From Microvirga lupini (GTDB lineage: Bacteria > Pseudomonadota > Alphaproteobacteria > Rhizobiales > Beijerinckiaceae), in contig KI911961.1 in NCBI GenBank assembly GCA_000517005.1, positions 19,163 to 69,838 of the forward strand: DNA of 50,676 nucleotides. Direction: 5' to 3'. Under the pieces are notes generated by a model that had not been told where the DNA came from, did not search any database, and saw only the letters and a list, made by a program, of their open reading frames with translations. The position numbers were made by a program, and so were the translations under genes. This document shows, in pieces, positions 5,685 through 50,676 of this stretch (its first letter is position 1; each line of letters opens with the position of its first letter).

Positions 5685-7595
5685 TCAACCTGCCACGCTC
5701 TCGGGGCTGCGCTCTTCCTCCTCGGCCCGCTTGAGGGTCTCGCGCGCCTGATCCGCCTCACGCTGGCGGTTCCACATGGCAGCGTAAACCCCGCCATGGG
5801 CCAGAAGGCTCGCATGGTTGCCGCGCTCGACCACCCTCCCCTGGTCGAGGACGATGATCTCGTCGGCGCCGATGACTGTGGACAACCGATGGGCGATCAC
5901 GAGAGTGGTCCGCCCCCGGCTGACCCGGTCGAGGGCGTCCTGGATCTCCTTCTCGGTGAAGGTGTCCAGCGCCGAAGTCGCCTCGTCGAGGACCAGGATT
6001 GGAGGGCTTTTGAGGATGGTGCGGGCGATGGCCACCCGCTGCTTCTCGCCGCCTGAGAGCTTCAGGCCGCGCTCGCCCACGGGCGTGTCGTAGCCTTCCG
6101 GTAGGAGGCTGATGAAGCGGTCGATTTGGGCCAGGCGGGCGGCCCCCCTCACCTCCTCCGGGCTCGCATCCCAGCGGCCATACTGGATGTTGTAGCCGAT
6201 GGTGTCGTTGAACAGCACCGTGTCCTGCGGGACCATGCCGATGACCTTGCGCAAGCTCGCCTGCTGCACCTCGGCGATATCCTGCCCGTCGATGAGGATG
6301 CGGCCGCTGGTGGGCTCGTAGAAGCGGAACAGCAGGCGGGAGATGGTCGACTTGCCGGCGCCCGAGGGGCCGACGATGGCAACCGTATGCCCGGCCGGCA
6401 CCTCGAAGCTCACGCCCTTGAGGATGGGACGCTCCGGGATATAGGCGAAATGCACGTCCTCGAAGCGCACGACACCCTCGGCCACCTGCAGCGGCTCGGC
6501 GCCGGGCCTGTCCTGGATCTCGGGGTTGCGCTCGATGATCGCGAACATGTCGTCGATGTCGATGAGAGCCTGTTTGATCTCGCGATAGAGCATGCCCATG
6601 AAGTTCAGCGGGATGTAGAGCTGCACCAGCATGGCGTTGACGAGCACGAAGCTGCCGATGGAAGCGCGTCCCGCCATGATGTCCCGCGCAGCCAGAACCA
6701 TGACGATGGCCATGCCGATGGAAAAGATCACGGCTTGGCCCGCGTTGAGTACGGCGAGCGACGTATAGGTCTGGGTCGAGGCCTTCTCGAACTTCTCCAT
6801 GGAGCGGTCGTAACGGGCGGTTTCCCGCTGCTCGGCGCCGAAATACTTCACCGTTTCGTAGTTCAGGAGCGAGTCGACCGCCTTGGTGTTCGCATCCGTG
6901 TCGGAATCGTTCATCTGCTTGCGGATCGAGATCCGCCACTGGGTCGCCTTGTAGGTATAGGCGAGATAGACGACGACCATGACGAAGACGACGGCCGAAT
7001 AGAGCCAGTTGAACTCCCAGGCGAGCAGGCCCAGCACCAGCAGGAACTCGAGGATCGTCGGCAGCAAGGTGAGCACCACGAGGCGGGACAATTCCTCGAT
7101 GCCCTCGCGGCCGCGCTCCAGCACACGGGTCAAGCCGCCGGTCTTACGCTCCAGATGGAAGCGCAGGGACAGGCGGTGCATGTGCTCGAAGGTCTGCAGG
7201 GCGAGATTGCGCACCGCATGCATGGCGACCTTGGCGAAGAGACCGTCGCGCAGCTGGGTCAGAACCGCCATGAGGATGCGGGTGATGCCGTAGATCACGG
7301 TCAGCAGGATCGGGGCTTTCCAGAGCCAGGAGCCGGCGGTCGCAGCAGCTTCGGCGCCCTGATTGCCGCCCGTGACCGCCACAAGCGCGTCCGTCGCCCA
7401 TTTGAAAGCGAACGGCGTGACCATGGTGACACCCTTCGCCACCAGCAGGAGGCCGAAGGCCAGGAAGACCCGTCGCTGAAGATCGGGCCTGCCGTGAGGC
7501 CAGAGATAGGGCCAGAGCTTCGTCCAGGTGGCCGCCAAACCGTTGGGCCTTGGCGCAGCAGCGCTCGTCGATGGGACGGCGGTGGAGGGAGGCAT
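5685..7595 (-). CDS. Atm1/HMT1-type ABC exporter (fused permease-ATPase)
   Basis: A 636-residue half-transporter. An N-terminal six-helix exporter domain (about 60-340) is followed by an ATPase with Walker A GPSGAGKST, signature LSGGEKQRVAIARTIL, Walker B ILVLDEATSALD and the H-loop IAHRLST. The sequence resembles bacterial Atm1 proteins, which export glutathione-derived compounds and take part in metal tolerance and Fe-S homeostasis. I chose the ATG at 7595 (MPPSTAV); an upstream start at 7691 would add 32 low-complexity residues. psd follows 52 bases downstream. The substrate is inferred. Confidence 0.92.
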   Translation of the reverse strand: MPPSTAVPSTSAAAPRPNGLAATWTKLWPYLWPHGRPDLQRRVFLAFGLLLVAKGVTMVTPFAFKWATDALVAVTGGNQGAEAAATAGSWLWKAPILLTVIYGITRILMAVLTQLRDGLFAKVAMHAVRNLALQTFEHMHRLSLRFHLERKTGGLTRVLERGREGIEELSRLVVLTLLPTILEFLLVLGLLAWEFNWLYSAVVFVMVVVYLAYTYKATQWRISIRKQMNDSDTDANTKAVDSLLNYETVKYFGAEQRETARYDRSMEKFEKASTQTYTSLAVLNAGQAVIFSIGMAIVMVLAARDIMAGRASIGSFVLVNAMLVQLYIPLNFMGMLYREIKQALIDIDDMFAIIERNPEIQDRPGAEPLQVAEGVVRFEDVHFAYIPERPILKGVSFEVPAGHTVAIVGPSGAGKSTISRLLFRFYEPTSGRILIDGQDIAEVQQASLRKVIGMVPQDTVLFNDTIGYNIQYGRWDASPEEVRGAARLAQIDRFISLLPEGYDTPVGERGLKLSGGEKQRVAIARTILKSPPILVLDEATSALDTFTEKEIQDALDRVSRGRTTLVIAHRLSTVIGADEIIVLDQGRVVERGNHASLLAHGGVYAAMWNRQREADQARETLKRAEEEERSPESVAG

Positions 7596-39895: not shown

Positions 39896-39939
39896 AAACG
39901 AAGAGCGCCGGAGCCTCTCTGCTCCGGCGCTCTTCGTTT
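39896..39939. terminator. Bidirectional rho-independent terminator, 18-bp stem
   Basis: Perfect 18-bp stem: AAACGAAGAGCGCCGGAG (39896-39913), loop of eight, complement 39922-39939. The right arm overlaps the stop codon of the convergent caspase-like gene by two bases. Confidence 0.93.
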
Positions 39940-42241
39940 AGCGCATGTTTTCGGGACAGAGACGTACCGGTCGGCAACGCTGCGTGTTGCCTCCGCCCTG
40001 CCCCCCGCCGGACGGCCCGGGAGCGGGACGGGCCTGCTGCGGTCTCTCAATATCACGGCCGGGACGCGGCTGGACCGATGGGCGCGGCGGTTCGCGGAAG
40101 GCGCGCTCCTCGCGAGGTGCCTCCATGCGAGGGGCAGGCCTCGGTTGGACGACTGGCGCCTCCGGACGCTGGATCCGAGGCAAAGGATTCCTACGCTCGA
40201 ACCTCTCCACTGCAGCAGGCCGTTCGCGCTCGATCCGCGGACGCGGTCCATCGTCCCGGCGATAATGGCGCTCTTCCGGCGGTGGCAGCACCCCCGTCGG
40301 ACGGCCGGCAACAGGGGCGGTCCGCTCGGGTCGGATACGTGGATCCGAGCGATCGGGATCGCTCCGTCCGGGCCGCTCCCGTTCGATCTCGATCCGCGGA
40401 CGCTCGGGCCGGGCCTGCCGCGGGAGGATCTCATCCCTGTCGAGGCGCGGATCTCTCGGTCGGGCTGCATCCCGCGCGGGAGCCTTCGGACGGATCCTAC
40501 GGGGATCGGGATCACGCTCGGCGGGGCGCGGACCGCGCGGCGCTTCCGGGCGCAAAGCCGGTTCGCCGATATCGGGTCGGCCGGGACGAAGCCGCTCCTG
40601 CGGAACATTCACAAGTGGAATCGGACGCGCGGGGATACGGCCCGGACGCGTCCGCGGCGGCTCGCCGGGGCGGGCGCCTCTGTCTTCACGCGGCGTTCGC
40701 GGATCGGCCGAGACCGGGATCGGCCGGATCGGCGCGGCAAGTCCGGGCTGGCGCGGAACGACCGGCTGCTCGGGACGAAGACCGCGGCGCGGGCGGGGTC
40801 CGCGTTCGTCGCCCATGAGGGAGCCGAAGACCGGCGGAGCGGCCACCGGAATGGCGACCGGGCCGCGCGGCGTCACCGGCGCGATGGGCTGGTAGAACGA
40901 GCGCGGCGGACGGGCGCGCACCGGAACCGGAATCGCCATCGGGATCGGCAGCACGCCAGCCATGACCGGCGGCGGCGGAGGCTCGCGGATGATGGTGACG
41001 AACTCTTCGTCCTCGTCCCATCGCGGAAGAAGATAGGCCGGCGTCCGGGGCGGCGGCACATCGCGGATGATGGTCACGACCTCCACCACCTCGACTCGCT
41101 CCACCTCGGGCAAGGGCGGCGGCAGATCTTCGTAGACCACCTCCTCGAAGGCTGTCGGCGGGGCGTAAGGCGCGGCCAGGCGCGCCAGCCGGCGCCGGCT
41201 GTCCGCCGCATGCGGTCCGTTCGGATAGCGGCGCAGATAGGTCCAATAGGCCTCCCGCGTATTGCTCGCCAGCGTCCGGCGCCAGATGATGGCTTCGCGC
41301 CGGGCGGCGAGGAGCGCCGTCACGCGGCGGGCGAGGCGATGGTCCGGATAGCGGCGCAGGAAGGCCTGATAATCCTGGATCGTGTCGCGCTCGACTGCGA
41401 TGGCATAGGCCTCTTCGGCCGGCACCTCCTCGATCCGGCGCACCTCGCGCACCAGCGGTGCGGCGACGGCCTCGGCCTGCTCGAAGAAGACGAAGGAGGC
41501 ATCGCCGAGATTGGCCGAGTGCCAGGGGATCTGCAGGCCGTTCGTAGCCTCGTGCGTCCGAAGCCGCGTGCGGGCGAAGACCTCGTCGAGCGCCATGCCC
41601 GGCTGACGGATCATCTCCGCCAGCGCCGTCGCATAGGCGCCATAGGGCCCCTGCCCGTCGGCGGCGACGATGTTGGGAGCCGAGGCGAAGGTCATCAGGA
41701 ACCCGGACGGCGGCTCCATGAGGGCAAGCCCCTTGGCCACCGGTTCGCCCGTGGAGCCGAGCGGGTAATCCCGCGCCATGTCGGCGACGATCACCCGCAC
41801 CTTTGCGGGGCTGCGCTCGAGGGAACGAACGAGATCGGAGAGACGGAAGCCCTCGATCGGCACGTCCACATCGCGCTCAATGCGGGCATCGACCGGCAGC
41901 AGATAATTGTCACCTTCGAGCTGCACGCCGTGGCCGGCCAGATAGACCATCACCGTCGAGCCGGGCTCCAGATCCTGAGCCTTGTCGAGAAAGTCGCGGA
42001 CGAGACTGCGCAGATCGTTGGCGCCAAGATCCCGCCCTTGGATGACCTCGAAACCGGCACTCGTGAGCGTCTGGGCGATCAGGCCGGCATCGTTGACGGT
42101 GGTCGGAAGCGAGCGGCCCTGATAGGCGCCCTGCCCGACGACCAGCGCGAGACGATCCTGAGCCGCCGCCATAGACGCTAGGCCGACGGCGACTGCGAAT
42201 GCAAGTCCGATAAAAACGATAGCACGTTTCAGATGAGACAC
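39938..42241 (-). CDS. Caspase-fold (C14) protein, apparently catalytically dead
   Basis: A 767-residue secreted protein. A signal peptide (1 to about 28) precedes a caspase p20-like domain (30-255) with the His box YLAGHGVQ (His104). The strand that normally ends DACR reads VIVADMARDYP, so the Cys position is Ala156. The following family features (MTFASAPN, AYATALAEMI) are intact. Residues about 270-350 contain TPR-like helices (RYPDHRLARR, RYPNGPHAADS), and about 400-767 is an extremely Arg/Pro-rich, probably disordered tail. It may be a scaffold rather than a protease. Long antisense frames reflect the high GC of the tail. Confidence 0.88.
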   Translation of the reverse strand: MSHLKRAIVFIGLAFAVAVGLASMAAAQDRLALVVGQGAYQGRSLPTTVNDAGLIAQTLTSAGFEVIQGRDLGANDLRSLVRDFLDKAQDLEPGSTVMVYLAGHGVQLEGDNYLLPVDARIERDVDVPIEGFRLSDLVRSLERSPAKVRVIVADMARDYPLGSTGEPVAKGLALMEPPSGFLMTFASAPNIVAADGQGPYGAYATALAEMIRQPGMALDEVFARTRLRTHEATNGLQIPWHSANLGDASFVFFEQAEAVAAPLVREVRRIEEVPAEEAYAIAVERDTIQDYQAFLRRYPDHRLARRVTALLAARREAIIWRRTLASNTREAYWTYLRRYPNGPHAADSRRRLARLAAPYAPPTAFEEVVYEDLPPPLPEVERVEVVEVVTIIRDVPPPRTPAYLLPRWDEDEEFVTIIREPPPPPVMAGVLPIPMAIPVPVRARPPRSFYQPIAPVTPRGPVAIPVAAPPVFGSLMGDERGPRPRRGLRPEQPVVPRQPGLAAPIRPIPVSADPRTPREDRGARPGEPPRTRPGRIPARPIPLVNVPQERLRPGRPDIGEPALRPEAPRGPRPAERDPDPRRIRPKAPARDAARPRDPRLDRDEILPRQARPERPRIEIERERPGRSDPDRSDPRIRPERTAPVAGRPTGVLPPPEERHYRRDDGPRPRIERERPAAVERFERRNPLPRIQRPEAPVVQPRPAPRMEAPREERAFREPPRPSVQPRPGRDIERPQQARPAPGPSGGGQGGGNTQRCRPVRLCPENMR

Positions 42242-48235: not shown

Positions 48236-48451
48236 ATGACCCGCGTTTCCAGCCCCTGCATCCGTGTCTGCATGATCGATCCCGAGACGGGCCTCTGCGA
48301 AGGCTGCGGGCGCACGCGGGACGAGATTGCCGGCTGGTATCGGATGAGCGAGGAGGATCGCCAGCGTATCATGGCTGAACTGCCGGAGCGGATGCGTGAG
48401 GCTTTCGCCCTCGAGTCTCCCTTCGCGCCTGAACCCGACAAGGCGGAGTGA
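48236..48451 (+). CDS. DUF1289 small cysteine protein
   Basis: A 71-residue protein with the family pattern [26 protein letters not shown] (positions 48250-48327), whose four cysteines should bind zinc or a cluster, followed by [13 protein letters not shown]. The role is unknown; it often accompanies cobalamin or housekeeping genes. It overlaps the protease gene downstream by four bases. Confidence 0.93.
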
Positions 48452-49164
48452 TGCCAGGGATTCGCGGCGCAGGCCTCCTTCTTCTGCTGGCCGCTCTCCT
48501 GGTGGGGCTGTTCGCCGACGATCCCGTCGGCGAGTTCTCGGCAATGGAGGCTTCCGGCCTTCTGGCTCTGGGCGGCCTCTCCCTGTTCATGGCGGCTTCC
48601 ATCGTCGAGGGCTTCGGCCGCCACTGGACCTATGGCGTCCAGGCTATTGCCGTCAGCGGCGGCGTGCTCATCGCCCTGCTCGTCACCTATGCCTCCCGCG
48701 ACGAGTTGCAGACCGTGATCGACCGCGCCATCGGCGACATCGCGGTCGGCCGCACCGTCGTCACGCCGGAGGGCGAAGTGGTGGCCGCGCGCCGGACGGA
48801 TGGGAGCTTCATGGTGCAGGGCGCAGTGAACGGGCATGAGACCCGCTTCATCTTCGATACCGGCGCCAGCACCGTCGTGCTGCGCGCGGAGAACGCGGCC
48901 GCTCTCGGCTTCAAGCCGGACAGCCTCGATTATTCCATTCCCGTCGCGACCGCCAACGGCGGCGCCCTCGCCGCCCCGGTCGTCATTGATCGCCTGACAA
49001 TCGGCTCGATCGCCGAGCGCAACGTCCGCGCGCTGATCGCCCGCTCGGGTGTCCTCCACGCCAATCTCCTTGGAATGACGTTTCTCGAGCGGCTGGGCTC
49101 CTATGAGGTGCGTGGCAACAGGCTGATCCTGCGAGCGAAGAGAGATATCAGCCGATCGGATTGA
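48448..49164 (+). CDS. Membrane retropepsin-like aspartic protease (TIGR02281)
   Basis: A 238-residue protein with about three N-terminal membrane segments (residues about 8-28, 35-52, 65-85) and a C-terminal retroviral-type aspartic protease domain with the active site [12 protein letters not shown] (about residue 134) and [12 protein letters not shown]. It is a clan AA protease of the TIGR02281 group. Start is GTG 48448 or the next codon, ATG 48451. It ends three bases before the convergent ADYC gene. Confidence 0.92.
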
Positions 49165-49167
49165 ACA

Positions 49168-49964
49168 TCACCGGGCTGTCCGATCCGTCACGACCGACTG
49201 GTTGAAGATGAGGGCGCGGGAATCGGCCCGCATGGCTTCCTCGTTGCAGGCTTCCGGTCCCAGGCGGCCCTTCAGGCGCGGGTAACGCTCGGCCAGTTGT
49301 TCGAGGGTGATGTTGTCGGCGATGCGCGGATGGGCGACGCAGATCGCCCCTTCCGGTCCCCAGGCCGCCTCGAATTCCATACCGGCGGCAGCCCCTGGAT
49401 CCTGAATCCCGAACCGGTCGTGGAGATTGACCAGAGTACCGTTTCTCGTGCTGGGGTGATCGTCCCCTCCGTAATCGGCGCGGAGCAAATGGATGCAGGC
49501 CTGAAGAAGGTCGCGCATCGGCACACCTTCCCTGGTCTCCCAGGGGCGATATCCGAACAGAACGCACTTGCCCTCGGCGCCGCTGGTGCAGGTGAGATTG
49601 AAGCCGCCCTTCCCGTCCGGTAATGCGAAGGCCGCACGGCGCCCGCTCGGATCCGCGTGGCAGAGATCGCTCATGGCCCCGTCGGCCTGGCGCACCGACA
49701 TGCGATAGAGCGGCAAGGGCGCGCGAAGGATCGTCCGATCCTCCTCGAAGCCGTCGATCCGAACCTCCAGGTCCTGCTGACTGCCCCCAGGATCAGCTTC
49801 AGCCCGATGAGACCATCCCGGCGCAGGACCCGGCCATCGCCCAGCCTCAGGACCAGCTCGGCATCCTCGAGCCGGATCTGCCCTTCGAGGGCGAGCGCCG
49901 AATGACTTGTCCCAAGAGCAAGGGCGAGAATCAGACTGAGAACGATGAAAAAGGATTTGCGCAT
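49168..49964 (-). pseudogene. ADYC-domain secreted protein, frameshifted
   Basis: A signal peptide and N-terminal strands (MRKSFFIVL to LIGLKLIL, from ATG 49964) are in one frame. The ADYC domain (ADPSGRRAAF, CIHLLRADYGGDD, AAWGPEGAICVAHPR, YPRLKGRLG-EAC) is in another down to 49168. Restoring one C in the run at 49784-49788 gives LILGGSQQDLEVRIDGFEE and a protein of about 265 residues. ADYC proteins are secreted and of unknown function. Cysteines occur in pairs, suggesting disulfides. The classical ADYC tetrad reads ADYG here. Its neighbours upstream carry NG-x3 repeats. Confidence 0.8.
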
Positions 49965-50014
49965 GACTTTAACGGCTCCCCAGTTCTCCGAGGAGCCGCT
50001 CCTCGTTGATGAGC

Positions 50015-50248
50015 CTACTTGAGAAGGACGCGAGAGCCGTCCGTCAGGACGACGGCTTTGATCTGCCCCTCGCCGGCGGCGCTCTGCGGCACGAACCCAT
50101 TGATAACCATGCCGTTCGCGCTCAGGCCGTTTGCACCATTCGGCGGTGGCCTTTCGTCGTCGATGGCGGCGAACCAGACCCGAGCCTCCGTGGCCGCGAC
50201 AAGCCCAAGCCCCAAGGCAAGGGCGACTGATAGAGAACGGATCTTCAT
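50015..50248 (-). CDS. Small secreted NG-repeat protein
   Basis: A 77-residue protein, start MKIRSLSVAL at 50248 with GGGAG upstream. A signal peptide ends near ATEARV. The mature part has NGANGLSANGMVINGF (period-5 NG spacing) and ends QIKAVVLTDGSRVLLK, similar to the end of the next gene (LKAIILQDD). The two look like paralogues. It precedes the ADYC gene by 50 bases on the same strand. Confidence 0.75.
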   Translation of the reverse strand: MKIRSLSVALALGLGLVAATEARVWFAAIDDERPPPNGANGLSANGMVINGFVPQSAAGEGQIKAVVLTDGSRVLLK

Positions 50249-50388
50249 GATGATCTCCCATTGTGGTTGGAGCCATGTCCAGGCTGGATCATGGCCGGCT
50301 CCATCAGTTAGGGCGAACATTATTGCAGAAAACCCATCATATGTTATTTAGTTTCAAATCGTGCGCGATCGCACATGGCCCTCCGGGG

Positions 50389-50490
50389 GCCTCTTCAAGA
50401 TCGTTGGGATGAAGGCCGGCAGGCCGAGCCCGCGATCTGGGAGAAAGAGTAAGCCTCCTCACGGCTTGAAGAGGCTCCTTGCTTCATCCC
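50389..50490 (-). promoter_or_regulatory. Interleaved inverted repeats (leader structure)
   Basis: GCCTCTTCAAG (50389-50399) pairs with CTTGAAGAGGC (50465-50475), and GGGATGAAG (50406-50414) pairs with CTTCATCCC (50482-50490). The order A-B-A'-B' is a pseudoknot topology. AGCCTC (50452-50457) competes locally for GAGGCT (50471-50476). This 264-base gap separates the two NG-repeat genes. Confidence 0.5.
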
Positions 50491-50512
50491 TGCATTATCT
50501 AATGATCAGGAC

Positions 50513-50676
50513 CTAATCATCCTGCAAGATAATCGCCTTGAGGCTCAGTTCCGCAGACTTTTCGGTGCCATTCACGCTGAGCCCGTTCACGCTCAAGCCG
50601 TTCACACTGAGGCCATTCACACTCAGGCCATTAACACTTAAGCCATTCACGCTCAGACCATCGACGCTCAGGCTGT
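50513..50676 (-). CDS. LSVNG pentapeptide-repeat protein (partial)
   Basis: The 3' part of a gene running off the right edge on the minus strand. The visible 53 codons are seven units of the pentapeptide LSVNG (one LSVD, one starting at the edge), then GTEKSAELSLKAIILQDD and a TAG stop at 50513-50515. N-x-x-x-x-N periodicity of five, one Leu and one Val per unit, could form a beta-helix. It is not the standard pentapeptide consensus, since Gly replaces the central Leu. The N-terminus, presumably with a signal peptide, lies outside. Confidence 0.75.
   Translation of the reverse strand, partial: SLSVDGLSVNGLSVNGLSVNGLSVNGLSVNGLSVNGTEKSAELSLKAIILQDD
50570..50674. repeat. 15-bp tandem repeat
   Basis: Seven units such as ATTCACGCTGAGCCC at 15-base spacing, continuing beyond the edge. 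Changes are mostly at third codon positions (CTC/TTG/CTG/TTA for Leu; AAC/AAT for Asn), which keeps LSVNG. It is coding, not an intergenic satellite. Confidence 0.9.

Follow-up and report, generated by a model that had tools for sequence, protein, structure and literature searches.

Pentapeptide repeat proteins (PF00805, PF13599) are built on a strict five-residue period, and secreted ones are already known. YjbI of Caulobacter (PMC12864828) is an exported pentapeptide protein that acts on the cell surface and has a link to envelope-stress signalling, with two conserved Cys pairs and a charged tail that is said to cross the outer membrane. A second described system of relevance here couples an ECF43 sigma factor (ECF, extracytoplasmic function) with a Hanks-type receptor kinase, as in PknS/EcfK and PknT/EcfP; in Xanthomonas citri, PknS phosphorylates the sigma factor that belongs to it, and complementation fails when the periplasmic region of the kinase is removed (PMC13147305). 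The present study concerns a gene pair at the right end of a 50,676 nt stretch of Microvirga lupini DNA (the window; GCA_000517005.1, contig KI911961.1, nt 19163 – 69838), in which small proteins with an Asn-Gly (NG) repeat, also of strict five-residue period, lie beside a gene of the ADYC family (PF20032). We propose that the NG and ADYC proteins form a conserved two-gene cell-envelope module, in which ADYC would bind the tail-bearing repeat protein and wiring to a kinase would be optional; our estimate of the probability of this reading is roughly 40%. The source genome comprises 9.63 Mb in 160 contigs, and the relevant features are as follows.

50513..50676, minus strand: NG1, 3' portion of an NG-repeat gene that runs off the window edge, with LSVNG units and the tail LSLKAIILQDD
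50567..50673, minus strand: 15-base tandem array within NG1, 7.1 copies with 77% matches (Tandem Repeats Finder)
50015..50248, minus strand: NG2, a 77-aa exported-looking protein with contracted repeats NGANGLSANGMVINGF and the tail IKAVVLTDGSRVLLK
49168..49964, minus strand: ADYC (PF20032) gene, 50 nt after NG2, frameshifted in the assembly
49964-49782, minus strand: ADYC frame 1, with a signal-peptide-like start
49788-49168, minus strand: ADYC frame 2, the bulk of the ADYC domain, with the motif RADYGGD
L002 5553-5828, beyond an assembly gap: P0002, a third NG paralogue of 91 aa

The pairing of the two families is not peculiar to this genome. ADYC genes were listed with a profile made from 13 Microvirga proteins, giving 54 rows that correspond to 52 distinct genes, since L002 (the frameshifted window gene) and L085 each held two rows. 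In two of these (the first gene of L006, and L123) only 16 and 157 nt of contig precede the match, which leaves 50 testable genes. Of the 50, 49 adjoin, on the same strand, a gene for a small protein that looks exported and carries period-5 Asn repeats, the tail, or both; 47 of these partners were found by script and two (L124 and L126) separately. Most of the paired genes belong to Microvirga, and the others come from a different order of the phylum, from two rhizobia and from one further alphaproteobacterium. The lone exception, L085, has a fragmentary ADYC gene without an NG partner, and ADYC and NG may have been lost together there. The partner lies upstream in 47 cases, mostly with 2 – 137 nt between its stop and the start of the ADYC match, and runs of three or more period-5 Asn are found beside most ADYC genes. 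In two rhizobial plasmids (two of the four plasmid records were examined for a partner) it lies downstream and carries NA rather than NG units, which argues for independence of the pairing. As a measure of the base rate, a loose partner test was passed by 9 of 4434 open reading frames (ORFs) more than 2.5 kb from an ADYC gene (about 0.2%), two of them being true NG paralogues, and by 59 of 2031 within 1.5 kb.

The NG proteins are defined by their repeats and by a common tail. Seven LSV(D/N)G units are readable in NG1, while NG2 has a signal-peptide-like N-terminus (by eye) followed by ANGLSANGMVINGF and its tail, and is 73% identical to its counterpart in Microvirga tunisiensis. When profiles of 10 NG1-type and 9 NG2-type tails, chosen by us, were compared, the two matched with a probability of 95.9 (E 6e-9). 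NG1 and NG2 are thus paralogues with a common tail and different numbers of repeats, as a preliminary description of this DNA had supposed; both points on which that description stood or fell, recurrence of the pairing in other genomes and kinship of the tails, were checked and came out in its favour. The units vary between lineages and paralogues: NGLST, NGLSV, NGLSA, NGRNL and NGLAF in Microvirga, NR units in L070 and L072, NAITA in Rhizobium, NALDS/NALTD in genome G775, and LNGxx, several mixed with LQGxx, in the order to which genome G212 belongs. Asn is the constant residue where Gly changes to Ala or Arg. Copy number is variable and reaches 23, some partners are reduced to one or two NG with the tail retained, and tandem NG paralogues occur in several Microvirga genomes.

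The five readable NGLSV units of NG1 have five different DNA sequences for one pentapeptide; likewise, L063 has 10 NGLSV units in 10 DNA versions and L080 eight NGLSA units in eight. Across 30 Microvirga arrays the mean proportion of nonsynonymous differences (pN) is 0.19 and that of synonymous differences (pS) 0.68, where pN includes the final unit of every run, at the transition to the tail, and so is an overestimate for the repeats proper. For seven arrays from other lineages the corresponding means are 0.33 and 0.69, with a ratio of 0.88 in L114. Units that are identical as protein and different at silent sites indicate that the pentapeptide is under selection, and the old Microvirga arrays are held alike at the protein level. 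Every NGLS unit displayed uses AGC or AGT for Ser, which fits descent by duplication. Silent differences amount to 0.44 – 1.17 of the random-codon value in ten arrays, and recent slippage as the source of all arrays was rejected except for that of L083, where 22 of the 23 units are DNA-identical and silent differences are 0.11 of the random-codon value. The L083 array is a recent DNA expansion, the one clear case among those measured. That units are alike within a molecule and different between molecules suggests, as far as sequence can tell, a stacking of like on like.

Compared with described pentapeptide proteins, the resemblance lies in the period. None of NG1, NG2 and P0002 matches PF00805, and the Microvirga and rhizobial NG proteins tested match neither the PF00805 nor the PF13599 model. 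Their constant residue is Asn. Five partners from the order of G212 were also tested, and one of them does pass PF00805 (27.6 bits, cut-off 20.2). YjbI may serve as a model for NG action. Unlike YjbI, NG2 and the readable part of NG1 contain no Cys and have a short hairpin-like tail (P0002 has one Cys, within its signal-peptide-like start), and the sections of PMC12864828 consulted make no mention of an ADYC partner. AlphaFold2 gave no confident fold, quadrilateral beta-helix or other, for the repeats of a 23-unit relative (mean predicted local distance difference test, pLDDT, of 52, with the repeats mostly below 50), and placed a short hairpin in the tail with a pLDDT of about 88. Low-complexity matches of such repeats to GLTT, Lamprin and DotG also occur. 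NG1 (26.5 bits) and P0002 (25.3 bits) pass the cut-off of 21 for PF01744 (GLTT repeat), which NG2 does not match; kinship with this family was set aside, as a 28-position low-complexity model is matched through period and composition. A DotG/IcmE match in NCBIfam likewise reflects composition.

Window nt 49171 – 49716 matches PF20032 with an E-value of 4e-38 and 131.7 bits (136.7 bits in the genome search), and its relatives also score far above the Pfam cut-off of 27. The motif in the window protein is RADYGGD, so that the name-giving Cys of the family is absent. In the alignment of 51 sequences, six Cys are invariant. The name-giving Cys and a second Cys are both present in nine sequences (two of them rhizobial, the other seven belonging to the order of G212) and both missing in 42, in which the name-giving Cys is replaced by Gly or Ser; no sequence has just one of the two. 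Wherever the motif Cys is present, the second stands in CPRL, or in two cases CSGL/CPGL. The simple reading is that the pair would form a disulfide that is lost as a unit, a pattern that may rest on one or two events. The structural model (pLDDT 74, predicted template modelling score 0.69) is rich in beta structure in its N-terminal part and mixed in its C-terminal part, and no structural relative of it was identified. No enzyme family was matched among the ADYC and NG proteins scanned, and no function or partner of PF20032 was found in the literature searched, where the papers returned by family name or motif look unrelated. The occurrence of LPDG in both proteins of L070 and L072 raised the idea that the tail mimics an N-terminal hairpin of ADYC. 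It was rejected: with the tail profile slid along the 41 ADYC proteins (of 47 pairs) whose partner tail has the turn, the best window fell on that hairpin in only five. Docking of the tail on ADYC is therefore inferred.

In the order of G212 the pair keeps company with regulators. Seven loci were covered there over 9 – 15 kb, with neighbours scanned as 10 chosen ORFs. A sigma factor (TIGR02999, PF07638) of ECF type adjoins the pair in five of the seven, as does, also in five, a membrane Ser/Thr kinase with tetratricopeptide repeats (TPRs). Both are found in L125, L127, L129 and L130, the sigma factor alone in L114 and the kinase alone in L126; L128 has neither within the stretch covered. All five kinases show one strongly hydrophobic stretch within residues 396 – 434, between the kinase and the TPRs; since this single span is preceded by basic residues, the TPR part is probably periplasmic, judged from sequence. 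The arrangement corresponds to the layout described for PknS (PMC13147305), the sigma factor being assigned by its TIGR02999 membership only. TIGR02999 matches are frequent in these genomes (208 at E 0.001 in seven genomes of about 36 Mb), so that some 6% of loci would be expected to have one within 5 kb by chance; five of seven is well above this, but the genomes are related. Unlike the ECF43/PknS systems, the seven gene-called Microvirga loci showed neither an ECF sigma factor nor a Ser/Thr kinase when the first 60 residues of their products were inspected by eye. Signal-transduction genes recur near the pair in lineages that lack these neighbours. L124 has a hybrid histidine kinase and a response regulator close by, L113 also has a hybrid histidine kinase, and L123 has a sigma-70 factor; LuxR-type neighbours are a protein in L065 of Microvirga and an annotated gene in L112. 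Separately, a recA gene (Pfam; L072 4946 – 6058) adjoins the pair in L072 with a DinB-like gene (by eye) on the opposite side, and a recA-like gene (by eye; 6173 – 7336) is near the pair in L124.

A protein search gave 12 related loci, all in Microvirga. ADYC genes are present in 32 of 61 relatives, namely 32 of 37 genomes of the genus (own genome included) and none of 24 from other families of the order; none was found in the 12 listed phylum-sample genomes of the same family and other genera. Elsewhere they are scarce, with 2 of 398 genomes in the phylum sample and 3 of 385 in the class sample (own genome counted in both); the order of G212 has them in 7 of 150. Plasmid records with ADYC come from Rhizobium (three) and Neorhizobium (one). 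These figures refer to samples of Pseudomonadota and to plasmid and phage records; the ADYC family is also common in Myxococcota. A search with P0002 matched 26 of the 32 Microvirga genomes that carry ADYC and none of the five that lack it. The NG profile gave one credible foreign match in the 385 class genomes, in G560 (E 2e-12), itself an ADYC carrier. There the NG match stops some 250 nt short of a contig end (C128) and the ADYC gene opens contig C60, positions that fit adjacency and do not prove it. The other foreign carrier in the class sample, G775, was missed by the profile despite its NA-type partner. Of further matches in G484, G726, G734 and G774, the three that were read (G484, G734 and G774) are low-complexity stretches of unrelated frames, and one in G024 (contig C2, E 0.005) also lies in an unrelated frame.

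At the locus itself, the cluster of three genes given in the preliminary description stands as to the three minus-strand features and needs revision in its details. The ADYC gene is split over two frames meeting at nt 49782 – 49788, to which the protein of an intact relative aligns consecutively, the cause being either an assembly error or a genuine break. NG1 is cut by an assembly gap: the window edge abuts a run of 100 Ns (L002 3840 – 3939) within NG1's own repeat array, and extension of the sequence to the right leads across this run to the third NG paralogue, P0002. To the left of the gap a start resembling a signal peptide can be read, but NG units in a clear frame are lacking. The L086 contig also ends inside an NG array, another sign that such arrays break assemblies. 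Beyond the gap there is also a gene that is presumably tRNA-dihydrouridine synthase-like. The preliminary description raised the question whether the three genes share a transcript. This is likely for NG2 and ADYC, with 50 nt between them; NG1 lies 264 nt upstream of NG2, and a promoter and terminator scan around the three genes gave results at chance level. On the other side, the ADYC gene adjoins a plus-strand gene for a retropepsin-type aspartyl protease (PF13650; nt 48448 – 49164). Together with CobS-like and dihydrouridine-synthase-like genes (the latter two by eye), it marks a Microvirga site that is partly common, being shared by L063, L069 and L080 and not by L065, L070, L072 and L091. 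Further away, nt 39938 – 42241 (minus strand) encode a protein of 767 aa that looks exported and combines a caspase domain (PF00656, E 3e-34) with a long tail rich in Arg and Pro.

Under the proposed module, both proteins would leave the cytoplasm by the Sec route; that they are secreted had been suggested earlier, and their N-termini fit this by eye, being signal-peptide-like. The repeats would then stack like with like, as a pentapeptide-type beta-solenoid or an in-register fibre whose turns are formed by Asn-Gly; such stacking would account for the match of units within a protein while proteins differ. The short tail hairpin may dock on ADYC, perhaps on an N-terminal beta-barrel, and the assembly may report on the envelope or remodel it. 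In loci with a kinase, the periplasmic TPR region of that enzyme may sense the assembly, or the sigma factor may control it. A stronger version, which we regard as tentative and rather doubtful, is that the pair represents a novel class of envelope machine, in which a secreted protein of exactly matching Asn-ladder pentapeptides is recognised through its tail by a dedicated, disulfide-locked ADYC partner, and the pair in some bacteria feeds a sigma-factor kinase by way of the periplasmic TPRs.

Much of the same evidence could be accommodated by a surface or matrix polymer, with NG as a structural fibre or adhesive coat, ADYC as its anchor or assembly factor, and no signalling. Exported-looking low-complexity repeats, like-with-like units, variation in copy number and the tandem paralogues of several Microvirga all sit well with such a polymer. 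Several partners are tiny (one to three units, less than 100 aa), which is short for a fibre, and the sigma factors and kinases in the order of G212 are left unexplained by structure alone; we consider the polymer possible and somewhat improbable. Another explanation makes NG a precursor, with a leader, identical cores and a follower-like tail, and ADYC an exported enzyme responsible for its cleavage or modification, for example at Asn. Alike units under selection, one conserved tail, copy numbers of up to 23 and a dedicated neighbour are what such a maturation system would show, and there are invariant polar residues in 13 aligned ADYC proteins and an Asn that stays constant when Gly becomes Ala or Arg. 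However, no spacer separates the units, no enzyme family was matched by the ADYC and NG proteins scanned, and several partners keep just one or two units, which makes this an unlikely account.

The preliminary description had also raised the possibility of a defence module, and two small linked genes without an assigned function would suit a defence or toxin-immunity pair. This has lost nearly all of its credit: none of six proteins matched PADLOC at E 0.01, no relatives were found in phage records by tblastn and none was confirmed in viral contigs by three pattern-based scans, and both genes look exported. That the two genes are chance neighbours, or the repeats a low-complexity artefact (slippage products or the wrong strand), as the easy matching of GLTT, Lamprin and DotG by composition and the recently expanded 23-copy array might suggest, can be dismissed as already contradicted by a pairing of 49 in 50 against a base rate near 0.2%, by silent-site divergence with conserved protein, and by a partner that is on the ADYC strand in every case counted.

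The cell-envelope module thus stays the reading that we favour. With a partner of one kind beside 49 of 50 ADYC genes, PF20032 becomes a testable two-protein system, and the sigma factor and kinase that adjoin it in one order could serve as a readout. A pentapeptide that is kept constant while its DNA diverges shows selection for repeats that match themselves, which poses a clear question to structural biology and points to a specific architecture.
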